NCBI GenBank assembly: GCA_020161775.1
Contig: JAIUOW010000017.1
Location: forward strand, 1 to 64,000
Origin: Pseudomonadota bacterium
Lineage (GTDB): Bacteria; Pseudomonadota; Gammaproteobacteria; Burkholderiales; Burkholderiaceae_C
Length of the DNA: 64,000 bases
Reading direction: 5' to 3'
Shown here one piece after another: positions 2,396 to 63,695 of the stretch. The stretch's first letter is position 1. The number at the start of each line of letters is the position of its first letter. The position numbers and the translations under genes were made by a program. The notes under the pieces were generated by a model. It worked only from the letters and a program-made list of their open reading frames with translations. It did no database searches and was not told the origin of the DNA.

Positions 2396-3615
2396 TGAAT
2401 GCTGTTCAGGGTGTCCAGGCCGCGCAGCAGGTCGGCCTTCATGTCGTCCAGGTGTTCCAGGCCCACGGCCAGGCGGATCAGCCCCTGGCCAATGCCTGCG
2501 GCCTGGCGTTGCGCCTCGGACAGCTTGCCGTGCGAGGTGCTGGCCGGGTGGGCCAGCAGGGTTTTGGTGTCGCCCAGGTTGGTGCACAGCGACAGCACCT
2601 GCAATGAGTCGAGCACATGGAATGCCCGTGCGCGCGCCTGCGCGGCGTCCGCCGCTTTCACGTCAAACGACAGCACGGCGCCGCCCACGCCCGACATCTG
2701 GCGCATGGCCAGCGCGTACTGCGGGTGGCTGGGCAGGCCGGGGTAGAACACGCGCGACACGGCCGGGTGTTGTTCAAGCCACCGCGCGATGTCCAGCGCG
2801 GCGGCGCTCTGCGCCTTCAGGCGGATGTTCAGTGTCTCAAGCCCCTTGAGCACCACCCAGGCATTGAAGGGTGACAGCACCATGCCGGCGTTCTTCTGCA
2901 CGGGCAGGAACTTGTCGCGCACCATGGCTTCAGGTGCGCACAGCGCGCCAGCCATCACGCGGCCCTGGCCGTCCAGGAATTTGGTGCCCGAATGCATGAC
3001 GATGTCGGCGCCCAGCGTGACCGGGCGCTGCAGCGCGGGCGTGGCAAAGCAGTTGTCCACGCACAGCAGGGCCCCCGCCTTGTGCGCGATGTCGGCCAGC
3101 GCGGCGATGTCGCAGACTTCGGTCAGCGGGTTGGTCGGTGTTTCGGCAAACAGCAGTTTGGTTGTGGGGCGCACGGCGGCGCGCCAGGCGTCCACGTCGG
3201 TCTGCGACACGCTGGTGGATTCCACGCCGAAGCGCGCAAATTCCGAGCCGATCAGCTTCATGGTCGAGCCGAACATCGACTGCGAGTAGATCACGTGGTC
3301 GCCCGCGCGCAGCAGGCTGAAGCACATGAGCATCACGGCCGCCATGCCGGAGGCCGTGGCCATGGCGGCTTCGGTGCCTTCCATGGCGGCCAGGCGCTGC
3401 TCGAAGCTGGTGACGGTGGGGTTGCCGGTGCGGCCGTAGGTGTAGCCGTCTTCTTCACCGGCAAACCGGCGGGCGGAGGCCTGCGCCGTGGGCTGCACAT
3501 AGCCGCTGGTCAGGTACAGCGCCTCGGAGTTTTCGCCGTACTGGCTGCGGTCCACGGCGGTGCGCACAGCCAGCGTGTCCGGGTGCAGCCCGGCGGGGAG
3601 TTGTCTGTCAGTCAT
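2392..3615 (-). CDS. metZ: O-succinylhomoserine sulfhydrylase
   Basis: This 407-residue PLP enzyme of the Cys/Met metabolism family makes homocysteine directly from O-succinylhomoserine and sulfide, a step in methionine synthesis. The [10 protein letters not shown] block (58-67) and the PLP-binding lysine in [12 protein letters not shown] (Lys212) are both present. The [11 protein letters not shown] form is typical of MetZ rather than of cystathionine gamma-synthase. It lies 17 bases after purF and overlaps gltX by four bases, the purF-metZ arrangement common in beta- and gammaproteobacteria. Another member of the MetB/MetC/MetZ family is possible but less likely. Confidence 0.95.
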
Positions 3616-3632
3616 TGATTGGGGGTCCTGGT

Positions 3633-5138
<1,506 letters not shown>

Positions 5139-5146
5139 GGCTTTCC

Positions 5147-5635
5147 TTAGCCGGGCAGGTATTGCCCGAATTCTTCCGGCAGCACGGGCTTCATGCCCTT
5201 GAGGGCCACGGTCAACACACCGGCGCCCGCCGATTCCTGCCACCACACGCCGCCCTTCAGGGGCGTCATGTTCACAACCACCGCCGCGGCCAGCAGCAGC
5301 ACCACGCCGCGCGCCAGGCCAAACGCCGCGCCCAGCGTGCGGTCCACGGGCCGCAGGCCGATTGCTTCCACCAGCTTCTTCAAAGCCCAGGCGATCAGGC
5401 CGCCCGCAAACGCCGCCGCCACCAGCACCACCACGAAGCCGGCCGCATAGCGCACCGGCTCGGAGGCCGAGCCCAGCGGCAGCCGGGCCGCGGCATCGGG
5501 CGCCAGCCACTGCGCCAGCACGAAGGCCGCGATCCAGCTCATGACCGACAACACCTCATACACCAGGCCGCGCCAGGCACCCAGCGCCAACGAAGCCACC
5601 AGTACCGCCACAAAAACCCAGTCCAGTACGGCCAC
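5147..5635 (-). CDS. cvpA: CvpA family inner-membrane protein
   Basis: The 162-residue hydrophobic protein has four predicted membrane segments, beginning with [18 protein letters not shown]. CvpA proteins were named for a role in colicin V export in E. coli; their general function is unclear and may concern envelope or purine-linked physiology. The start is a GTG immediately before AVLDWVF, which gives the usual family length and N-terminus. The extra upstream reading is basic and lacks similarity. It is followed eight bases later by purF, the classical cvpA-purF linkage, and preceded by a SPOR-domain gene. Confidence 0.92.
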
Positions 5636-5642
5636 GCCCTGC

Positions 5643-6434
5643 CTACAAGGTGAGGATGGCCGCGGGCAAATCCAGCCCCTTGATCTTTTCAGCCGCGCGG
5701 TCGGCCTCGGCCTTGCTCGCAAACGGCCCTACGCGCACGCGGATGCGCTTGCCTTCCTTGGTCTCGGCCACGTGGGTGTAGGTCTTCAGGCCCGCGCGTT
5801 CCACCTTCAGCCGGGTTTCGCGCGCCTTGTCGGCATCGGCGAAGGCGCCGACCTGCACCACATAGCGCTCGCCGTTGGCCGCGCCGGTTGCGGTGGCGGC
5901 GGGCGCGGCCTTGCCTTCCAGCAGGGCCTTGGCGCGGGCGCCGTCATCGGGCTTGGGGGTCGGCTTGGGCGCCGAAGCCGCCGGCTTGGGCGCCGAAGCC
6001 GCCGGCTTGGGCGCGGGCTTGGCCGGCACGATTTCTTCCTTGGGGCCCAAGCCCTCGGCCTGCGCAACCTTGGGCGGCGGGGCTGAAGGCGCCGGGGCCG
6101 TGACCGGCCCGGACACCACGGGCGCGGCCGGCGCGGGCTGGGCCGGCGCGGGGGCGGCCGGCGCGGACTGGGTCGGCGCTGAGGGCACCGGGGCCGCCGG
6201 TGCAGCCGCCAGCGGCTTGGCCTTGGTGCGGTCAGGAATGTCGATGGGGATGTCCACCTGCACCGGCCGGGGCTGGGTGTCAAACAGCAGCGGGAAGCCC
6301 ACCACGCCGATCAGCACCAGCACCGCGGCGCCGATCAGGCGGTGCCGGGCGCGCCGGCGCATCACCTCCACGCTTTCGGCCGGGGCCGCCGCCGCAGTGT
6401 CTTCACCCGCCTTGCGAAATTTGAAAAAGGCCAT
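5643..6434 (-). CDS. SPOR domain protein, DedD-like
   Basis: The 263-residue protein has a cytoplasmic N-terminus, a single membrane anchor (RLIGAAVLVLIGVVGFPLLF, about residues 33-52), a long Ala/Pro/Lys-rich periplasmic linker with a repeated PKPAASA unit, and a C-terminal SPOR domain (from RYVVQVGAFAD to the end). SPOR domains bind denuded peptidoglycan at division septa, and DedD is a nonessential division protein. The position between folC and cvpA is conserved for DedD, which supports the assignment. The linker is low-complexity and will align poorly. Confidence 0.9.
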   Translation of the reverse strand: MAFFKFRKAGEDTAAAAPAESVEVMRRRARHRLIGAAVLVLIGVVGFPLLFDTQPRPVQVDIPIDIPDRTKAKPLAAAPAAPVPSAPTQSAPAAPAPAQPAPAAPVVSGPVTAPAPSAPPPKVAQAEGLGPKEEIVPAKPAPKPAASAPKPAASAPKPTPKPDDGARAKALLEGKAAPAATATGAANGERYVVQVGAFADADKARETRLKVERAGLKTYTHVAETKEGKRIRVRVGPFASKAEADRAAEKIKGLDLPAAILTL

Positions 6435-55111: not shown

Positions 55112-56173
55112 TTACAGGGCGGGGTCGCGCATTTCCCAGCGGATGCGGTCGATCTGTGCCAGCACCTCGGGTGACAGTTGCGTGCCCCAGGCGTTGAGGT
55201 TCTCGTCGAGCTGGGCCAGCGACGTCACGCCAATGATGGTGCTGGCCACGCGCCAGCTGGTGTAGCAAAAGGCCAGCGCCATCTGCGTGGGCGTCATGCC
55301 GTGGTCGCGTGCCAGTGCGTTGTAACGGCGCGCGGCCGCCAGCGCCTCGGGCCGGCCCCAGCGTTGCTGGCGCACGGATTCAAACCGGGCAATACGCGCA
55401 TCAGCCGGCGCGAGCGGGCCTTCGGTACCGCCCTGGTCGTATTTACCCGTCAGCAGCCCGAAACCCAGCGGCGAATAGGCCAGCAGCGACACCCCCAGGC
55501 GGTGCAGGGTTTCGTCCAGCGCGTTGTCCACCGTGCGATTGAGCGTGCAGTAAACGTTCTGCACGCTGGCCACGCGCGGCAGGCCGTGCTGTTCGGCCAG
55601 CCGCACAAACTCATGCACGCCATACGGTGTTTCGTTGGACAGGCCGATGTGGCGCACCTTGCCGGCCTTCACCAGCGTGGCCAGCGCCTCCAGCTGCGCA
55701 TGGATGGGCGTGCGCGACTTTTCCTTGGCCGGGTCGTAATACTGGATGCCGAAGGCCGGCACATGCCGTTCGGGCCAGTGGATCTGGTACAGGTCAATCA
55801 CGTCGGTGCGCAGCCGTTTGAGCGACGCGTTGCACGACGCAATGATGTCGGCGGCCGTCATGCCCGCGCCTTCGCGCAACCAGGGCATGCCGCGCGATGG
55901 GCCAGCGACCTTGGTGGCCAGCACGGTTTTCTGCCGTGCACCGGGCGTGGATGCAAACCAGTTGCCGATGATGGTCTCGGTGGCGCCGCAGGTTTCGGCG
56001 CGCGCCGGCACCGAATACATCTCGGCCGTGTCGATGAAGGTCACGCCGCGCTCCTGCGCGCGGTTCAGGATGGCGTGGGCCACCGGTTCGTCCACCTGTT
56101 CACCAAAGGTCATGGTGCCCAGGCAGATGGGGGTGACGTGAAGGCCGCTTTGGCCGAGTTGGACCGTGTTCAT
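55112..56173 (-). CDS. Aldo/keto reductase, Tas-like
   Basis: The 353-residue NADPH-dependent reductase has the (beta/alpha)8 barrel pattern: ICLGTMTFGEQVDEPVAHAI, catalytic Asp/Tyr in FIDTAEMYSVP, Lys in VLATKVAGPSRGMPWL and His in DLYQIHWPER. The GMPWLREG insert and length are as in Tas/YghZ-like enzymes. The substrate is unknown. It is 20 bases upstream of ybaK on the same strand and downstream of an intergenic repeat element. Confidence 0.93.
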   Translation of the reverse strand: MNTVQLGQSGLHVTPICLGTMTFGEQVDEPVAHAILNRAQERGVTFIDTAEMYSVPARAETCGATETIIGNWFASTPGARQKTVLATKVAGPSRGMPWLREGAGMTAADIIASCNASLKRLRTDVIDLYQIHWPERHVPAFGIQYYDPAKEKSRTPIHAQLEALATLVKAGKVRHIGLSNETPYGVHEFVRLAEQHGLPRVASVQNVYCTLNRTVDNALDETLHRLGVSLLAYSPLGFGLLTGKYDQGGTEGPLAPADARIARFESVRQQRWGRPEALAAARRYNALARDHGMTPTQMALAFCYTSWRVASTIIGVTSLAQLDENLNAWGTQLSPEVLAQIDRIRWEMRDPAL

Positions 56174-56218
56174 GGGGTTGAGTTTACCTAGGGGCTCTAC
56201 AGGGGTTGCGCTTCTTCT

Positions 56219-56320
56219 GGATAAGGCGCGCGGGGTACTCTGCTCCGCGAATGTCCTCCGGCGGGCTGCGCCCGCCTCCCCCTTGATTTCGCTGCGCAGA
56301 GCACCCCACCCACCTTATCC
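56219..56320. repeat. Imperfect long inverted repeat overlapping repeat copy 1
   Basis: The 33 bases at 56219-56251 (starting GGATAAGG and ending CCGCGAA) are an imperfect reverse complement of 56288-56320 (TTCGCTGCGC to CCTTATCC). The arms flank a 36-base region that itself contains GGCGGG/CCCGCC arms. Only the downstream arm has an equivalent in repeat copy 2. It may be a terminator or part of the ancestral repeat unit. Confidence 0.6.
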
Positions 56321-56470
56321 CGCCAACACAGCGGCGCGCCACCGGCTGCACGCCACCAAGTAGCGGGTTGGTGGTGATGGTGCCCGGCGCAGCGGCATCA
56401 AGGAGGAGAAACGGCGAAGCCGTTTCGGGGGACAGCCGCGGAGCCGGGCACCGTCAGCGCCAACCTGCGG
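56257..56470 (+). repeat. Structured intergenic repeat, copy 1 (214 bp)
   Basis: This 214-bp block reappears with the same length and orientation at 63482-63695. Its 3' part can fold into three stacked stems: GGTGCCCGGC (56379-56388) with GCCGGGCACC (56443-56452); GCGGC (56392-56396) with GCCGC (56435-56439); and GAAACGGC (56408-56415) with GCCGTTTC (56419-56426) closing on a GAA loop. Purine-rich internal loops (AAGGAGGA and GGGGGA) are conserved in character. No gene lies within it. It fills most of the gap between the aldo/keto reductase and LysR genes. Confidence 0.88.
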
Positions 56471-56491
56471 GGCAAAAAAAGCCAGCCAAGT

Positions 56492-57379
56492 TCAGCGCGC
56501 CGACAACCCCCAAACCCCGCGCAGCACCGACAGCGCCGCCACGATGGCGGGGTCATGCTCCGACGTCTTGGGGTAGATAAAGCTCAGCATGGCGGCCACG
56601 CGCGTGTGGGGCCAGATCACCACTTCGTCGCGCTCGGCCGCGGGCACGGCCACATCCTCGCGCAGCAGGGCCAGGCCCAGGCCGGCGCGCACCAGGCTGT
56701 GCGGGGCCGATGCGTCGTCAGACTCCAGCACGATGTTGGGCAGCAGGCCCTGCCGCGAGAACAGGTCGCGCAGCAGGCTCTGTGCGTGGCTGGCGTGCGG
56801 CGCGCCGATCCACGGCATGTCGGCAATCTCGCGCCAGCCCGCGCGCAGCACCTGGTGGCTGAACGAGAACGGCGCGGCAATGCGGTAATGCAGCGTCTGC
56901 AGCGGCAACCCGTTCACGTCGCGCGGGATGTTGGGGCCGATGTAGAAGGACGCGCCCAGCGTGGATGTGGCCACCGCCTCGCGCAGCGCCTCGGCGTCGC
57001 CCGAGCGCGTCTTGATCTCCAGCAGCGGCAGCGCGCTGACCAGCCCACCCAGCAGCGAGCCAAGGCGCAATGAATCAGGGTCGCCCACGGTGCCGATCAC
57101 CAGTGAGCCCGACACCTCGCCCTGCAGCTCGCGCGCCTGGCCCAGCAGCGAGCCCGCGGCCGCCAGCACCTTTTCAGCCTCGGGCAGCAGGCGCTCGCCC
57201 GCGCGCGTGAGCGCGATGCGGCCGGGGCGGCGGTCAAACAGGGCAATGCCCAGTTCCTCTTCCAGCGCCTTGATCTGGCCGGTGACGGCCGGCTGCGTAA
57301 CATGCAGCGCCTCGGCGGCGCGCGTCAGGTGGCCGATCTTGGCCACCGTGACGAAGGCGCGCAGCTGGTAGATTTCCAC
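56492..57379 (-). CDS. LysR family transcriptional regulator
   Basis: The 295-residue protein begins MEIYQLRAFVTVAKIGHLTR and has a standard LysR helix-turn-helix (AAEALHVTQPAVTGQIKALE) and effector-binding domain (GSLVIGTVGDPDSLRLGSLL). Its ATG is one base beyond the stop region of the ABC transporter ATPase gene upstream on the same strand, so it is the last gene of that operon and probably controls the importer. Length is typical. Confidence 0.94.
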   Translation of the reverse strand: MEIYQLRAFVTVAKIGHLTRAAEALHVTQPAVTGQIKALEEELGIALFDRRPGRIALTRAGERLLPEAEKVLAAAGSLLGQARELQGEVSGSLVIGTVGDPDSLRLGSLLGGLVSALPLLEIKTRSGDAEALREAVATSTLGASFYIGPNIPRDVNGLPLQTLHYRIAAPFSFSHQVLRAGWREIADMPWIGAPHASHAQSLLRDLFSRQGLLPNIVLESDDASAPHSLVRAGLGLALLREDVAVPAAERDEVVIWPHTRVAAMLSFIYPKTSEHDPAIVAALSVLRGVWGLSAR

Positions 57380-57380
57380 G

Positions 57381-58472
57381 TCAGTGGGTCAAAAAACGTA
57401 CTTGCGTGGACTCTACCCCCAGGCGTACCTGCGCTCCGGGCTGGAACAGCGCCAGGCCCGAGTAGTGCGGCTGGTTGGCCACGATGACCGCATCGCCCAC
57501 GCGCACGCGATAGCGTGACGATTCACCCAGGAATTCCGAGCTTTCCACCTTGCCGTCCAGCCAGGTGCGCGAGGCGTCCACATGTTCGTCGCGCACGCGG
57601 ATGTTGACCGTGTGCGGACGAAACGCCATGGTGGCCGGGCCCACGCCCGGCGCTTCGCTGTTGCGCGGCAACACCAGCATGCCCACGCCGTCGGCCTGGA
57701 AGCTCAGCGTCTCGCCATTGACCTGCGTGACCTTGCCTTCCACCAGGTTGGCCGTGCCCACAAAGCCCGCCACGAAGCGGTTGGCCGGAAAGTCAAACAG
57801 CGCGGCGGCCGTGCCCACCTGCTGCAGTACGCCCTTGTCCAGCACGGCCATGCGGTCCGCCGTGGTCATGGCTTCTTCCTGGTCATGGGTGACGAAGATG
57901 GTGGTCAGGCCCAGCGTGCGCTGCAGGTTCTTGAGTTCCTCGCGCATCTGCACGCGCAGGTTCTTGTCCAGGTTGGACAGCGGCTCGTCCAGCAGCAGCA
58001 GCTTGGGGCTAATCACCACGGTGCGCGCCAGCGCCACGCGCTGCTGCTGGCCGCCCGACAGCTGGCTGGGCCGGCGGTCGGCGTATTGCGCCAGGCCCAC
58101 CAGTTCCAGCGCGGCGCCGACCTTGCGGCGGATCGCGTCCTTGGTCTCGCGCCGCTCGACAAGGCCGAAGGCCACGTTGTCCCACACGGTCATGTGCGGC
58201 CACAGCGCGTAGTTCTGGAACACCATGCCCACGTTGCGCAGGTGGGGCGGCGTGCCGGTGATGTCCTTGCCATCAATCAGCAGCTCGCCGCGCTGGTGCT
58301 GGTTGAAGCCCGCGATCAGCCGCAGCAACGTGGACTTGCCCGAGCCCGACGGGCCCAGCAGTGCGAAGAACTCGCCCGGCTCGATGCGGATGTTGACGTC
58401 TTTCAGCACTTCAACCGGGCCATAGCTCAGGCTGATGTGGCGGGCTTCGAGGGAAACTTTGTTGAGGGTCAT
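57381..58472 (-). CDS. Fbp/Pot-type ABC transporter ATP-binding protein
   Basis: The 363-residue ATPase has Walker A GPSGSGKST (about 39-47), the Q-loop VFQNYALWPHMTV, signature LSGGQQQRVALAR, Walker B KLLLLDEPLSNLD and a switch His in FVTHDQEEAM. A C-terminal TOBE-like domain (TMAFRPHTVNIRV) is present, as in FbpC and PotA. It works with the fused permease and solute-binding protein encoded upstream. Iron(III), polyamine or phosphonate are all possible substrates for this class. Confidence 0.92.
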   Translation of the reverse strand: MTLNKVSLEARHISLSYGPVEVLKDVNIRIEPGEFFALLGPSGSGKSTLLRLIAGFNQHQRGELLIDGKDITGTPPHLRNVGMVFQNYALWPHMTVWDNVAFGLVERRETKDAIRRKVGAALELVGLAQYADRRPSQLSGGQQQRVALARTVVISPKLLLLDEPLSNLDKNLRVQMREELKNLQRTLGLTTIFVTHDQEEAMTTADRMAVLDKGVLQQVGTAAALFDFPANRFVAGFVGTANLVEGKVTQVNGETLSFQADGVGMLVLPRNSEAPGVGPATMAFRPHTVNIRVRDEHVDASRTWLDGKVESSEFLGESSRYRVRVGDAVIVANQPHYSGLALFQPGAQVRLGVESTQVRFLTH

Positions 58473-58483
58473 GTTGTGGTTCC

Positions 58484-60214
58484 TTATTCGTCCTTGGCAC
58501 GCACGGGTTCGCGCGACTTCTCGATCACGCGGTGCGACAGGTAGGTGCCGATGGCCACCACCACCACGGCGATCACGCCCAGGGCGGCGCCGGGCCCGCG
58601 GCCGGACACGCTTTGCATGTAGAGGTAGATGCCGTAGCTCATGGGCGCCTGGCTCTGCGCCGACGTGAGCAGGATGGTGGCCGACAGCTCCACCGCCGCC
58701 GTGATGAAGCTGGTGACAAAGCCCGCCAGGATGCCGCCCATCATCAGCGGCACCATCACGCGCCGCACGGTGCTGATCTTGCCCGCCCCCAGGCTGTTGG
58801 CGGCCTCTTCCAGCGAGATGTGCACCTGCTGCAGCGCCGCCATGCAGGACCGCAGCGCATACGGCAGCCGCCGCACCGCATAGGCGATCATGATCAGGAA
58901 CCAGGTGGCCACCATGGGGGTGTCGGTAAAGGGCACGTTCACGCCCTTGAACAGCCGCAGGTAGCCGATGGCCAGCACCAGGCCGGGGATGGCCAGCGCG
59001 ATCGACGCCAGGTAGTCCAGCCACTGGCGCGCCGGCAGCTGCGTGCGGTAGATCAGGTAGGCGATGGCGGTGCCCAGCAGCACGTCCAGCCCCGCCGCCA
59101 GCAGGCAGTATTTCAGCGTGTTGTAGATCATGAGCTTGGAGTCGCCGAACACCGTGCCGTAGTGGGCCAGCGTGTAGCTGTCGGGCAGCACCGAGAAGCT
59201 CCAGACCTTGCTGAACGACATCAGCAGGATGCCGATATGCGGCGCCAGCGTGACCAGCAGCACGAACACGATCCAGCCATAGGCCAGCACCGATTCCCAG
59301 CCGCGCAGGTGGCGCCGCTGCAGCGAGTTGCCACCCTTTTGCAGCGTGGAATAGTCCTTGCCCTTCATGACGCGCGCGGCCATCCACAGCGCCAGGATGG
59401 AGAACGCGATCATGATCACGCTGATGACGTAGCCCAGCGGGTCCTCGATGCCCACCGAGGTGATGCGCAGGTAGGCCTGGGGCGCCAGCATGTTGGTCAC
59501 ACCCATGACCAGCGGCGTGCCCAGGTCGTCGAACACCTTGACGAACACCAGCGCCGCGCCCGCCAGGTAGCCCGGCAGCGACAGCGGGAAGATCACCCGC
59601 CAGAACAGTCGCCAGCCCTTGGCCCCCAGGTTCATGGCGGATTCCTCCATCGCGCCGTCGATGTTGCGCATGGCGGCCACCAGGTTCAGCAGGATGAACG
59701 GGAAGTAGTGGATGCTTTCCACAAAGGTCACGCCCACCAGCCCGTCCATGATCGGGATGCTGAAGCCGAACCAGTCGTTCAGGATCAGGTTGACCGAGCC
59801 GCTGCGGCCAAAGATCAGCTGCAGCGCGACCGCGCCCACGAACGGCGGCATGATCAGCGGCAGCACGCCCAGCGTCTGGATCAGCAGCGCACCGCGGAAT
59901 TCGAAGCGCACCGTGAGGTACGCGAGCGGGATTGCAATGACCGACGCGAAGAACACCGAGGCCAGCGCCACGATCAGGCTGTTCATGAACGATTCACGCA
60001 GCAGCGACTGGCCAAAGAAGTTCTGGAAGTGCCCGAGCGTAGGCGCGCCGGTTTCGGTGACGAAGGCGGTGTAGATCACCTGCCCCACCGGCAGCAGCAG
60101 GAACACGCCCAGGAAGGCGAGCACCAGCCCGGCCAGCAGCCAGGGGCCCCAGGCGATGGGCGCTCGCGCGCGGGCTGCGCCGGGCGCGGCGGGTTCTGTC
60201 ATGACAGCAGACAT
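58484..60214 (-). CDS. Fused double ABC transporter permease, FbpB-like
   Basis: The 576-residue inner-membrane protein carries two permease domains in tandem with about 12 membrane helices. Each half has a coupling motif: EESAMNLGAKGWRLFWRVIF in the first and EEAANSLGAGKISTVRRVMV in the second. Such fused permeases belong to the ferric iron/2-aminoethylphosphonate group of importers. The start may be MSAVMTEPA (60214) or MTEPA slightly inside. It precedes the ATPase gene by 11 bases and follows the binding-protein gene by 66. Confidence 0.92.
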   Translation of the reverse strand: MSAVMTEPAAPGAARARAPIAWGPWLLAGLVLAFLGVFLLLPVGQVIYTAFVTETGAPTLGHFQNFFGQSLLRESFMNSLIVALASVFFASVIAIPLAYLTVRFEFRGALLIQTLGVLPLIMPPFVGAVALQLIFGRSGSVNLILNDWFGFSIPIMDGLVGVTFVESIHYFPFILLNLVAAMRNIDGAMEESAMNLGAKGWRLFWRVIFPLSLPGYLAGAALVFVKVFDDLGTPLVMGVTNMLAPQAYLRITSVGIEDPLGYVISVIMIAFSILALWMAARVMKGKDYSTLQKGGNSLQRRHLRGWESVLAYGWIVFVLLVTLAPHIGILLMSFSKVWSFSVLPDSYTLAHYGTVFGDSKLMIYNTLKYCLLAAGLDVLLGTAIAYLIYRTQLPARQWLDYLASIALAIPGLVLAIGYLRLFKGVNVPFTDTPMVATWFLIMIAYAVRRLPYALRSCMAALQQVHISLEEAANSLGAGKISTVRRVMVPLMMGGILAGFVTSFITAAVELSATILLTSAQSQAPMSYGIYLYMQSVSGRGPGAALGVIAVVVVAIGTYLSHRVIEKSREPVRAKDE

Positions 60215-60280
60215 ATGTTGTGCTTTCTCGGGTCTGAAAAACCGGCGCGCACCGTGGCGCGCCGGCGGGCCGGGGCGGCC

Positions 60281-61612
60281 TTACTTGATGAGGGCCGAGG
60301 CCTGGCTGGCCAGCTCGCGCGCCTTGTCGTAGTTGGACTTGGCCTTGGAGCTCCACAGGTCTTCCAGGCCGGTGAGCTGCTTGGCCACGGCCACGTCCTT
60401 CTTGTTCTTGCGGAACAGCTCCAGGAACGCGGCGTCCTTGATCATGCTGTCGGACACCAGGGGCGAATACGCATAGCTGCGCGCCTGCTTGAGCAGGTCG
60501 GCGGCCTGCGCATTGGGCTTGGCTTTCAGCTTGCGCTCGGCGTCATGGATGGCCTTGGTGGCGGCCTGCAGGTCCTTCAGCCGGAAGGTCACCATCTGGT
60601 CAAACAGGCTCACCACGACCTGGTAGCGGTCGCTGGACAGGTGCGAGTCAAACTGCACCTTGGCCCGCTTGGCGATCTCGTGCGCGTCGGGGTAGCCGGC
60701 CGGCACCTTGGCGCCAAAGCTGGCGTTGGGCAGGATGGGCAGGCGGCTGATCTTGGGGTCGAACAGCAGCTCCTGGCCTTCGCGCGACAGCGTGAAGCTG
60801 ATGAACTTCTTTGCCTCGTCGTTGTTCTTGCCGCCGGCCACCAGCGCGATGTTGGCCGGCACCACGGCCGTGACGTTGGGGTAATGGAATTCCACCGGGA
60901 AGCCGGAGTACTTGCCCGCCAGCCCAAAGAAGTCAATCACGATGCCGACGCCGTACTGGCCATTGTTCACGCCATCAGGCACGGCAAAGCTGCGGTCCGT
61001 CACGGCGGCGCAGTTGCCCGCGATCTGCAGCATCTGGGCCCAGCCCTTTTCCCAGCCCTCGCCCTGCAGGATGGTCTCCACCGTCAGGTGGGTCGTGCCA
61101 GAGCGCGAAGGCGATGAGATCGACACGTGGCCAAAGTATTCAGGCTTGATGAGGTCGGCCCATTCCTTTGGCGCGGGCACCTTGTGCGCGTTCATGTAGC
61201 GCGTGTTCCACATCAGGCCGTAGCCAGCCAGGGCCTGGCCGTAATACATGTTCTCGGGGTCGTTGATCGGGTAGTTGCCGATCTTGGCCGGGGCCTGGGG
61301 GTTCTTGACCTCGGGCGCGGGCTGCAGCAGCTTGTCGCGCGCCAGCACCTCGAATGCATCGGGCGCCGACGCCCACATCACGTCCGGGCGCTGGCCGGCC
61401 GGCAGTTCCTTGATGTAGGCGATGCTGGCCGTGGTGTTCTTGTTCAGGATCTCGATCTTGATGCCCGGGTTGCGCGATTCGAATGCCTTCTTGTAGGCCT
61501 CGGTCAGCTCCTTGGGGAACGAGGTCACCACCGACACGGTGCCGGCGTGGGCGGCGGCAAACGCGGTCATGAGGCCCAGTGTCAGGGCACGGATGGCGTG
61601 GCGGTTCGGCAT
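60281..61612 (-). CDS. ABC transporter extracellular solute-binding protein
   Basis: The 443-residue protein has a signal peptide (AIRALTLGLMTAFAAAHAG) and a type II periplasmic-binding fold (VSVVTSFPKELTEAYKKAFE, then NMYYGQALAGYGLMWNTRYM). It is about 100 residues longer than FbpA/AfuA because of a helical, Lys/Ala-rich C-terminal extension (from about 340). The usual tyrosine pair of ferric-binding proteins is not evident, so iron is not assured. It is the first gene of the importer operon with the fused permease, ATPase and LysR regulator. Confidence 0.9.
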   Translation of the reverse strand: MPNRHAIRALTLGLMTAFAAAHAGTVSVVTSFPKELTEAYKKAFESRNPGIKIEILNKNTTASIAYIKELPAGQRPDVMWASAPDAFEVLARDKLLQPAPEVKNPQAPAKIGNYPINDPENMYYGQALAGYGLMWNTRYMNAHKVPAPKEWADLIKPEYFGHVSISSPSRSGTTHLTVETILQGEGWEKGWAQMLQIAGNCAAVTDRSFAVPDGVNNGQYGVGIVIDFFGLAGKYSGFPVEFHYPNVTAVVPANIALVAGGKNNDEAKKFISFTLSREGQELLFDPKISRLPILPNASFGAKVPAGYPDAHEIAKRAKVQFDSHLSSDRYQVVVSLFDQMVTFRLKDLQAATKAIHDAERKLKAKPNAQAADLLKQARSYAYSPLVSDSMIKDAAFLELFRKNKKDVAVAKQLTGLEDLWSSKAKSNYDKARELASQASALIK

Positions 61613-61844
61613 GCTTGTCTCCTTCAGTTTCGTTATTGGAAGGTCTGCAATGTACCGCCCGCTCCCCTATGTCGCCAATCATGGTTTTTGATAGGGGGGA
61701 TAAACGCGAAGGCCTCTCGGGTTAACCCTTGCGCTGTTGGTATCGCTTTTTAATCTGCAGCAGGGCACCGTCGCTACTTCTTGATGTTCCACCAGGGACG
61801 AAGATCGAACGGCTGAACGAGGAAGGAACGGGGACAAAGGGTCT

Positions 61845-62813
61845 TCAACGCCATCCCTGTGAAGCTGGCTGCCAGGTGGCAGTGGCCTGACTGCCCGCAG
61901 CAGCGACCTGAGTCGGGGGCCACAGCAGGTCATCCAGCATCGACACGGTGTCACCCAGGCTCGCGGCTTCGATGCGGTTCTTGTTCAGGAAGGCCTGCCA
62001 CTGGCGCAGTTTCGCGGCGTCTTCGCTGAACTGCCGGGTCAGCGCCAGGGGCCGCTCGTTGGGAAGGGCTGTCTGGCGCCGGGCGAAGGTGGCGGCGATG
62101 GCTGCGGCCAGCGTGGCGCCGTCCAGTTCCGTGCGCCGTGCAATCACCGCCAGATCAAAGAAGTCCTTCATGCGGCTGTTCGCCTGCCCCAGCATCACCA
62201 TGGCTTGGTATTTCTCGGCGATCACGGTGTACACCGGATAGACCCGCAGCGTGGGAGATGGGAAGTCACCCAGCAAGGTGGGATAAGCCGCCGTCTGCGG
62301 CCCTGGCGTCACGGCGTCCCCGAAACCCACGTCGATCTGAAGTGCGCAGCGTGCGGAGCCGATGCGTGCCACCAGCCTGATGCGCGTTCCGCCTTAGGTG
62401 TTGTCTTCGCGAATCGCAGCGGCCGTCACGGAGTCGGGGTCAAACACGATGCCGTCGCCCAGGTCCATGGCGGCGATGTCGCGGAAAGTGGCGATCAGGT
62501 TTGCCTCATCGTCGGGGCCGAAGCCGAGCAAGTCGGCGTCCCTGGTCGGCCGGTGCGGTGTGTCGTACCAGAGTGCAAAAAGCAGGGCGCCCTTGAGCAG
62601 GAAGCGGTCGGCATGCGGTGAGATGCTGACGCGGGCCAGCAGCCGCTCGATGCCGAAGCGGTTGAGCAGCAGGTTGTAATCGTCGCCACGTTGCTTGGCA
62701 AGGATCAGCAGTCGGGCCAGTATTGACGCGCAAAGGTTGCCGGAGGATGTGAGAACACCGCCCTCGCGGGCTGCGGTGCGAGCTGGCTTGGGGCGGCCCG
62801 GCGCTGCACTCAT
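61845..62813 (-). pseudogene. abiEii: AbiEii nucleotidyltransferase toxin interrupted by an ochre codon
   Basis: From ATG 62813 the frame encodes the nucleotidyltransferase part of AbiEii (FLLKGALLFALW, then RPTRDADLLGFG with the DxD-like metal site) up to REDNT at codon 139. Codon 140 is TAA (62394-62396). The same frame continues without shift as GGTRIRLVARIGSARCALQI, then DVGFGDAVTPGP and the C-terminal half to 61845. Homologues have Tyr-Gly-Gly at the junction, so a Tyr codon has probably become TAA. The N-terminal fragment alone lacks the ligand-binding half. The ATG overlaps the antitoxin stop. Confidence 0.85.
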
Positions 62814-63409
62814 TGCGTCACCGCCTCCAGGTAGGGTTGCATGACACGTTCGACCCGGTTGATCCTGGCGAAGTGCCTCAGCTCGGCCATGGTCACCTTG
62901 CGGCTGCGCCAAGCGTCTTTCAGCGCCTCCAGCGCCACGTCCAGGCCGATCTTGTTGCGGAACTTGAAGCAGTCGGTCACCGTCTTGGCGGCGCTGTACA
63001 CCCGGATGGGGGCACCATGGTCGGTCACGGTCTCGATGCCGTCGCTGTAAGCGGTGCCGCGCAGGCGCGTGATGCGAAGCAGGGGGTAGCTCGGGGCCGG
63101 GGTCTGTGTCGCTTCGGGCAGCGCGATCCACACTTCGTGCGGCAGTTGCGTGCCAATCTCATGGAATTGCAGCGCGCTCAGAAGACACAGCACGGCCTTG
63201 GGCACACGCTGGCAGACCTCGATCAGCGTCTGATGCTCGGTGACTTCAGCGTCAGGCAGTCCGTACAGGCCCCGGGCGAACCGTTGCAGCTTTCCTGCCT
63301 GGTACAGCCGGATCAGAAGCTGCGGTGACCAGCCGAGCTCGCGCACATCCGCCGCCCGCAGCACGCGCCGGTGCTGAGCCAGTTCGAGAATGTGGTCAGA
63401 CTGGTTCAT
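62810..63409 (-). CDS. abiEi: AbiEi-type antitoxin/transcriptional regulator (type IV TA)
   Basis: The 199-residue protein has an N-terminal winged helix (HRRVLRAADVRELGWSPQLL, then GKLQRFARGLYGLPD) and the AbiEi C-terminal domain (AVLCLLSALQFHEIGTQLPH, then RVYSAAKTVTDCFKFRNKIG). AbiEi represses its promoter and neutralises the AbiEii nucleotidyltransferase. It looks intact. It is coupled to the damaged toxin gene by an ATGA overlap and preceded by a perfect 12-bp inverted repeat, its probable operator. Confidence 0.92.
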   Translation of the reverse strand: MNQSDHILELAQHRRVLRAADVRELGWSPQLLIRLYQAGKLQRFARGLYGLPDAEVTEHQTLIEVCQRVPKAVLCLLSALQFHEIGTQLPHEVWIALPEATQTPAPSYPLLRITRLRGTAYSDGIETVTDHGAPIRVYSAAKTVTDCFKFRNKIGLDVALEALKDAWRSRKVTMAELRHFARINRVERVMQPYLEAVTQ

Positions 63410-63426
63410 GAGGGGTTAGTTTAATA

Positions 63427-63456
63427 TTCGCATTACTTTTGTTCAAGTAATGCGAA
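63427..63456. promoter_or_regulatory. Operator-like perfect inverted repeat upstream of abiEi
   Basis: TTCGCATTACTT (63427-63438) and AAGTAATGCGAA (63445-63456) are perfect 12-base inverted arms around a six-base spacer, ending 17 bases before the abiEi start codon on the minus strand. AbiEi proteins are known to bind inverted repeats in their own promoters, so this is the likely autoregulatory site. The AT-rich sequence stands out from its surroundings. Confidence 0.85.
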
Positions 63457-63481
63457 ATTCAATCAGTTCTGTGCCATGGCT

Positions 63482-63695
63482 TCCGGCGGGCTGCGCACGC
63501 CTCCCCCGTTATTTCGCTGCGCAGAGCACCCCACCCCCCTTATCCTGCCCACGCAGCGGTGCGCCAACGGTTGCACGCCACCATGCAGCGGGTTGGTGGT
63601 GATGGTGCCCGGCGCAGCGAAATTAAGGGGGAGAACTGGCGAAGCCAGTTCGGAGGACATTCGCGGAGCCGGGCACCGTCAGCGCCAACCTGCGG
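63482..63695 (+). repeat. Structured intergenic repeat, copy 2 (214 bp)
   Basis: This is the second copy of the element at 56257-56470, offset by exactly 7225 bases with no net insertion or deletion. The fold is preserved: outer arms 63604-63613 and 63668-63677 are identical to copy 1; middle arms are GCGAA (63617-63621) and TTCGC (63660-63664); inner arms are GAACTGGC (63633-63640) and GCCAGTTC (63644-63651) around GAA. Differences in the middle and inner stems occur on both sides and keep pairing. It fills the gap between the AbiE promoter and the acyl-CoA synthetase gene. Confidence 0.88.

Follow-up and report, generated by a model that had tools for sequence, protein, structure and literature searches.

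A dispersed intergenic family of paired hairpins whose strand-specific fold is kept by selection

A dispersed element built from two hairpins is present twice in a 64,000-nucleotide stretch of DNA from a Pseudomonadota bacterium of the Burkholderiaceae_C (assembly GCA_020161775.1, contig JAIUOW010000017.1, positions 1 to 64,000); the whole of this stretch is called the window here, and the genome that contains it the source genome. Each hairpin unit folds in a strand-specific manner, and selection keeps this fold. The two-hairpin geometry recurs from genome to genome, and the element is dispersed, with sites that are empty in related species. We give about an even chance to the reading that it is a non-autonomous, REPIN-like element, in which a folded single strand of DNA is read by a putative protein.

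Unit architecture and selection on the fold

The original prediction joined two 214-bp intergenic blocks, 56257-56470 and 63482-63695, through nested stems that change on both sides at once. These blocks align without gaps, in the same orientation and with 89% identity. The outer stem (GGTGCCCGGC/GCCGGGCACC) is unchanged between both copies, the middle stem is GCGGC/GCCGC in one copy and GCGAA/TTCGC in the other, and the inner stem is GAAACGGC/GCCGTTTC vs GAACTGGC/GCCAGTTC with a GAA loop in both, so that the count of four two-sided replacements was right. One covarying change had been overlooked, an internal loop that goes from GGAGG/GGGGG to GGGGG/GGAGG. Furthermore, although the blocks are real, the limits of the element were misjudged. 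The hairpin in the 3' part is about 108 nucleotides (nt) long and has a further outer stem, and the 5' half, which had been passed over, holds another member of the family, a hairpin on the opposite strand. In copy 1 this left hairpin begins at about 56217, upstream of the proposed start at 56257. Self-matches of several copies on both strands in BLAST searches were an early sign of the second, inverted hairpin. The core pattern (AAGGNGGAG..CGGNGGACA) occurs three times in the window and not once in 100 shuffles.

The architecture of the unit was derived from 21 units at 12 places of the source genome, which as a whole contains 22 units by exact pattern. Units are of two subtypes, A and B. The outermost part consists of an outer stem of about 11 bp, free in sequence, then one mismatch, and then a stem of about 14 bp. 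Inside the latter lies a 3x3 motif, G.A/C-G/A.G (GCA over GGA), whose two G.A places are invariant in 21 of 21 units. Inward of this motif are a 5-bp middle stem and an internal loop, ATNAAGGRGGA over GGRGGACA, and the tip is formed by a terminal stem, free in sequence and length, with a small loop. When folded as DNA, each of the three intact window units gives one structure, and the opposite strands fold more weakly by 11-12 kcal/mol; RNA folding of these units also gives the stronger structure on the sense strand. To our knowledge, few bacterial dispersed repeats combine a comparably elaborate architecture with strong evidence of selection.

Selection on the fold is seen in the way the arms change together. 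Among the units of the source genome 96.5% of cells are paired, vs 78.3% in shuffles, and a two-sided change is present in 22 of 38 pairs, vs 16.2 in shuffles. For 144 distinct units from many genomes the paired fraction is 93.9%, vs 64.8% when shuffled and 35-41% in slid controls, and 1379 cells carry a two-sided change, vs 359 in shuffles. Two measures are weak: pairs with any two-sided change (34 of 37, vs 31.0 shuffled) are equalled by 6 of 500 shuffles, and the extra pair types of the source genome (44) by 44 of 500. The remaining measures are equalled by no shuffle. A phylogenetic null was generated with our own version of an R-scape-type test, using a tree and 40 simulated alignments in which the parsimony changes per column were kept; the alignment was model-fitted and drew on 99 sources (the window and 98 of about 300 loci), from which the best 150 of 194 matches were taken. 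At E<0.05, 27 of 5356 column pairs exceed this null, and 23 of them are among the 37 pairs of the structure. The other four (of 5319 pairs outside the structure) comprise one extension of the terminal stem, two that couple the middle-stem switch with the adjacent base, and a last one between the R positions of the purine loop. The proposal of a selected fold is supported by the 144 distinct units, and neither of the outcomes that would have counted against it, many copies lacking covariation or identity with a known transposon end or gene, arose.

The purine pair of the GGRGG/GGRGG loop covaries as well. Among 353 distinct units, a set that includes related copies and therefore counts non-independent events, the pair is AG in 291, GA in 46, AA in 5, GG in 1 and something else in 10; were the two sides independent, the margins would predict about 44 AA and 40 GG. 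AG and GA are each found across several genera and alongside several middle stems, and they stand side by side within one element at one other locus (L069) and in window copy 1. Units of a second order have 49 AG and 2 GA (n=51). In 43 of 142 units, two adjacent Watson-Crick pairs in the middle stem have given way jointly to tandem G.A.

Pair geometry, gene context and dispersal

Units typically come in pairs. Among neighbouring units less than 400 bp apart (n=135), the order is minus-plus in 130, plus-minus in 4 and minus-minus in 1. In the minus-plus pairs the purine-rich sense strands face outward, the gaps between cores are mostly 111-125 bp, and the two members, judged by eye, are mostly of differing subtype. 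The same order prevails with a looser core allowing two substitutions (two-unit groups: 93 minus-plus, 10 minus-minus, 7 plus-plus, 6 plus-minus) and among close neighbours in the second order (16 minus-plus, 2 minus-minus, 1 plus-minus and 1 plus-plus; n=20). Two minus-plus neighbours are more than 400 bp apart (722 and 2906 bp), and three minus-minus neighbours are far apart too. At one locus (L054, positions 3170-6219, on contig G005:C40), two like units 2.9 kb apart surround two genes, which encode a 290-amino-acid protein without a Pfam match and a 641-amino-acid AAA-type ATPase that also matches a zinc ribbon weakly (PF24389, PF13191); this interior is possibly cargo or an inserted module. 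Another locus (L056) encloses, by eye, a small membrane-protein gene. An autonomous element with cargo was considered for these two loci and rejected, since the enclosed genes are not transposases and two half-elements around a gene explain both cases equally well.

Units lie between genes and close to gene ends. Gene calls for the context and strand tests and for the clustering of neighbour proteins came from our own crude method based on GC3 (G+C at third codon positions). After exclusion of groups overlapping a called open reading frame (27 of 218), the clean intergenic groups (n=162) comprise 53 in convergent, 94 in tandem and 15 in divergent contexts; among adjacent genes of the same loci with gaps of at least 50 bp, element gaps included, 103 of 529 are divergent. 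The median distance of a unit from a gene 3' end is 48 bp. When 781 neighbour proteins from 214 loci were clustered, the 25 largest clusters were common families plus a site between pccB-like and pccA-like genes.

At this pccB-pccA site a hairpin pair is present in seven loci (L116, L119, L204, L238, L267, L297 and L301) and in genome G088. The seven loci come from genomes G066 and G094 and from records titled Hydrogenophaga, Rhodoferax (two), Comamonadaceae and Burkholderiaceae. Their type B units have a different middle stem, GCAGGT with ACACGGAGC or ACACGAAGC, and stems are replaced on both sides between loci (for example, CAACGGGC/GCCGTTG vs CTTGGGGC/GCCCAAG). The pair may be old at this site, and some copies, such as these, may be retained by the host for a local role. 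It is nevertheless a minority state: of the 99 genomes with a PccA match, 50 were inspected upstream of pccA, and three pairs and one single unit were found, weaker matches to a loose pattern being judged chance. The source genome has between pccB and pccA (L424) a palindrome, GTCATTGCGGGCTTGACCCGCAATCC, similar to the spacer palindrome of elements in another genome, G154. There, a second short palindrome family (GTCATTCCCGCGAAGGCGGGAATCCAGTC or near it) occurs within the spacers of three elements (L110, L112, L114).

The element is widespread within the family of the source genome. A model of the unit (R1), with at most 13 places scored per genome, finds it in 135 of 299 genomes and 76 of 141 genera. 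Within the order, 18 of 399 genomes, spread over three families (f1, f13, f21), contain the exact pattern; a reversed control gave 0. Genera named in record titles, among the matches listed, are Variovorax, Rhodoferax, Hydrogenophaga, Ramlibacter, Acidovorax, Rubrivivax, Ideonella, Aquabacterium, Rhizobacter, Pseudorhodoferax and Xylophilus. In 274 genomes of the class, a second model (R2) matched the source genome, one of its family, G835 weakly (E 1e-3), and G756, which belongs to another order. In this second order, 14 of 200 genomes have units, all of them from a single family and spread over 4 of 69 genera; the gene style of this family is reminiscent of the Xanthomonadaceae, to which it may belong. 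The pattern is also present in a record titled MAG Stagnimonas sp. (L283), whose metagenome prefix, C4_, is shared with a pattern-bearing Ramlibacter bin; this contig is possibly misbinned. No units were found in phage records. The bare core is present in 87 stretches of IMG/VR, and a stem check of 80 left 6, of which 4 look real by eye; apart from about 4 units, nothing points to carriage by viruses. Three Variovorax plasmid records, of 1.2-1.3 Mb, carry units.

The prediction of a dispersed element is borne out by the scatter of units in genomes and by their uneven presence between sister species, and the element has been gained or lost between species. Of six G154 sites checked against two sister species, four were empty in at least one sister and one was filled; one of the four empty sites has 925 bp of other DNA in the other sister. 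At one of the six, the unit was apparently lost via a deletion between CCTG repeats. For a site flanked by methyltransferase and LysR genes, a search of 61 congeners gave 30 loci, and a unit with a stem is present only at the query's own. One of these loci has an arm-like remnant, and two further matches lie, by eye, in a glycine-rich gene; in ten loci inspected by eye no junction is legible, the species being too divergent. Within a genome, copies look alike in their outer stems by eye.

The preferred reading and its rivals

Covariation beyond phylogeny is a mark of structured non-coding RNA. The units show it; the covariation test does not separate RNA from single-stranded DNA. The original prediction left a choice between structured RNA and a DNA hairpin bound by protein; strand tests lean to DNA over RNA without deciding between them. 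G.T pairs outnumber A.C pairs by 347 to 59 in the model-fitted alignment and by 914 to 141 in 408 units (again including related copies, with an alignment score neutral between both pairs), and thus one strand is selected, the sense strand that carries the purine loop. Where flanking genes transcribe the sense strand (83 units), the ratio is 185:16; where it is untranscribed (84 units), it is 196:33. Since the asymmetry persists in untranscribed units, flanking transcription is not its source. Together, the strand asymmetry and, as described below, the loops, the lack of orientation bias in single units, the equal state of paired units and the lack of promoter and terminator signals favour a folded single DNA strand, with RNA as a live rival.

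In the preferred reading, that of a REPIN-like element, the sense strand would act as single-stranded DNA, exposed during replication or repair (most simply replication). Folded, its 3x3 motif and its GGRGG/GGRGG purine loop would form a putative binding site, and a putative protein of the host or of a mobile element would recognize the shape of the hairpin. By analogy with what RAYT does to REPINs, this protein might copy or move the pair. By the tests made, it is not a RAYT. A narrower version, which we put forward tentatively, is that of a DNA-level element of two orders whose single folded strand is read by a putative non-RAYT transposase or nuclease, with a purine-only internal loop of four GG steps and a side-swapping A.G, and with the two outward hairpins as the ends of the system's smallest unit. 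The purine-only loop is perhaps a two-tetrad quadruplex, or perhaps purine-purine pairing between two duplex stems.

A preference of single units for one replication strand is not relied on here: the sense strand is on the locally C-rich strand at 50 of 78 loci (vs 28), yet the preference is not robust to gene-corrected third-position skew, which in loci with genes on both strands gives 32 vs 26 (p 0.51), and 21 vs 8 at skew >0.05.

Several observations weigh against the preferred reading. No enzyme stands out among the 25 largest neighbour clusters, which by eye represent metabolic, transport and regulator genes. RAYT is absent from 3 of 20 unit-bearing genomes (G020, G120, G255), each rated 100% complete. 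At empty sites no target duplication or clean junction is legible, identities of 83-95% blurring the junctions. A REPIN-like single-stranded intermediate would put one of the two hairpins on its weaker strand. In addition, A.C pairs are commoner in untranscribed units (33 vs 16), a mild hint of selection at the RNA level; G.U pairs and tandem G.A are equally at home in RNA, and 11 of the 26 GNNA loops also fit the RNA-type GNRA; and the pair at the pccB-pccA site is found in several genera and is probably transcribed there.

The strongest rival, a possibility we hold to be somewhat doubtful, is an element that works as RNA. It would act in read-through transcripts of neighbouring genes, where it could protect mRNA 3' ends, serve RNase processing or bind a protein, roles that have been suggested for operon REPs and for NEMIS; or else it would be a separate small RNA. 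The architecture is RNA-like, with a strand-specific fold, many G.U pairs and joint tandem G.A replacement, and the proximity to gene 3' ends, the few divergent contexts and the recurrence at the pccB-pccA site all suit this explanation. However, single units in tandem gene contexts are not aligned with transcription (24 sense, 26 antisense, p 0.89), the two members of a pair in such contexts are equally intact (21 vs 22), and the G.T:A.C asymmetry is kept on untranscribed sense strands. Promoter-like enrichment was not found in the spacers, where TATAAT with up to one mismatch occurs in 3 of 124, vs 13 of 124 flank pieces, and T-runs of at least four are nearly absent downstream (2 of 252 3' flanks). 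Of the apical loops in 389 units, 271 are GNA and 26 GNNA, and loops of RNA type are rare (GNRA, 11 of the 26 GNNA loops; TNCG, 1). With G-C pairs, GNA and GNNA loops make extraordinarily stable DNA mini-hairpins, GCGAAGC melting at 78 degrees, according to one report (PMC4686876). An Rfam scan of the window returned only three tRNAs, and 20 loci of other genomes gave 0 matches; a permissive scan of 56150-56550 gave at best E 0.0016, to a miRNA family (31 bits vs 168). The earlier statement that no known family could be named therefore stands, and no description of the hairpin repeat, its core strings included, was found in the open-licence PMC literature.

It is unlikely that the units belong to the BRE family of Bordetella. 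BRE is likewise a dispersed repeat in Burkholderiales with no known function; it has a high G+C content, is mostly intergenic, and is reported also in the Comamonadaceae (Polaromonas, Delftia, Rhodoferax, Acidovorax; PMC3110155). BRE copies measure 75-91 bp, commonly follow one another in tandem arrays separated by few bases, and are found within genes as well (PMC3110155), whereas the present units are about 108 bp and form inverted pairs (130 of 135). Moreover, the order-wide exact pattern matched only families f1, f13 and f21, which may or may not include that of Bordetella.

We consider it still more improbable that the units are REP/BIME/REPIN elements of a RAYT (TnpA-REP) transposase. 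REP/BIME/REPIN elements are dispersed intergenic palindromes that often form inverted dimers, in most cases with 20-100 bp between the two members; they tend to lie close to gene 3' ends, and for the most part in tandem or convergent contexts (PMC3733652). The present units are similarly dispersed, numerous, non-autonomous inverted dimers, intergenic and biased to 3' ends. Unlike a REP/REPIN palindrome of 20-40 bp with a GTAG/CGTC tag, however, the unit is about 108 nt long and has two conserved internal loops, purine-purine covariation and a stem sequence that is almost free while the fold is kept. GTAG is seen by eye at the foot of some type A units of the source genome, and GCAG, TTAG or others elsewhere. 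The Y1_Tnp domain (PF01797) is present in 17 of the 20 unit-bearing genomes and is lacking in the three named above; within about 1.5 kb of 19 Y1_Tnp genes there is no unit, the five loose pattern matches having, by eye, no stem. A RAYT link was accordingly rejected: the Y1_Tnp gene of the source genome has different palindromes and no unit nearby, and 20 further genomes show no link. This gene, the only Y1 transposase match of the source genome (L023, G000:C1:279035-279361), is flanked by AATTGGGGTCAGATT-like palindromes of its own.

Template switching can create two-sided changes in long inverted repeats, and neutral quasipalindrome correction inside the hairpin could in this way keep the arms complementary without any function. 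This explanation is very improbable. Such correction would yield Watson-Crick matches alike on both strands, so the excess of G.T over A.C is left unexplained, as are the A.G/G.A exchange, the conserved unpaired purines and the coupled tandem G.A; the purine exchange and the strand asymmetry together argue that this is not neutral arm correction. A bidirectional intrinsic terminator, for which G+C-rich hairpins facing both ways near gene ends would speak, is the least credible of all, given the near absence of T-runs noted above and elaborate internal loops that termination does not need.

Among other known systems, Correia/NEMIS and MITE-like elements are also small, non-autonomous, intergenic, and present or absent between relatives. 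In those elements the terminal inverted repeats are conserved and the target is duplicated, whereas the ends of the present element look unconserved by eye and no duplication is legible at the blurred junctions. Both attC sites and IS200/IS605 ends are recognized as folded single DNA strands in which structure is conserved over sequence. However, attC sites are arranged as direct repeats and the hairpins of IS200/IS605 share one strand, unlike the two hairpins on opposite strands described here, and no integrase or TnpA neighbour was noticed among the neighbour-protein clusters. The structure persists in 76 of 141 genera of one family, and in a second order, although most of the bases in its stems have been exchanged; this implies a widespread factor able to recognize the shape of the hairpin. 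Identifying this factor would add a structure-specific system of DNA (or RNA) recognition, and the purine-purine exchange in the loop lends itself readily to testing for a non-canonical nucleic acid fold. Because no Rfam family scored the searched loci, the hairpin family could enter Rfam as a model.

The copies in the window

Copy 1 extends overall from about 56217 to 56469, with a minus-strand left unit and a plus-strand right unit, and sits between genes for a LysR protein and an aldo/keto reductase. In copy 2 the right unit is intact; the left unit is damaged, and one of its arms is gone.

Table 1. Hairpin units and spacer of the two window copies
Feature	Coordinates	Strand	Evidence
Copy 1 left hairpin, type B (outer stem GGATAAGG.., GCTCTGC)	56217..56322	-	R1 114.8 bits; DNA fold -38.4 kcal/mol, z -7.3; core 56252-56284
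Copy 1 spacer, 39 bp	56323..56361	.	Gap between two R1 matches
Copy 1 right hairpin, type A (outer stem GCGGGTTGG.., GCCCGGC)	56362..56469	+	R1 109.1 bits; DNA fold -45.3 kcal/mol, z -9.0; core 56400-56434
Copy 2 left-unit remnant, type B: inner hairpin and one arm (approximate limits)	63480..63541	-	Alignment to copy 1; no R1 report
Copy 2 right hairpin, type A, purine loop swapped (GGGGG/GGAGG)	63587..63694	+	R1 111.3 bits; DNA fold -42.9 kcal/mol, z -8.2; core 63625-63659

Copy 2 adjoins an AbiEi-type gene (62813-63409; PF13338 match, E 5e-7). A perfect 12-bp inverted repeat, TTCGCATTACTT / AAGTAATGCGAA, lies just upstream of this gene at 63427-63456 and is a likely operator of the AbiEi-type gene.

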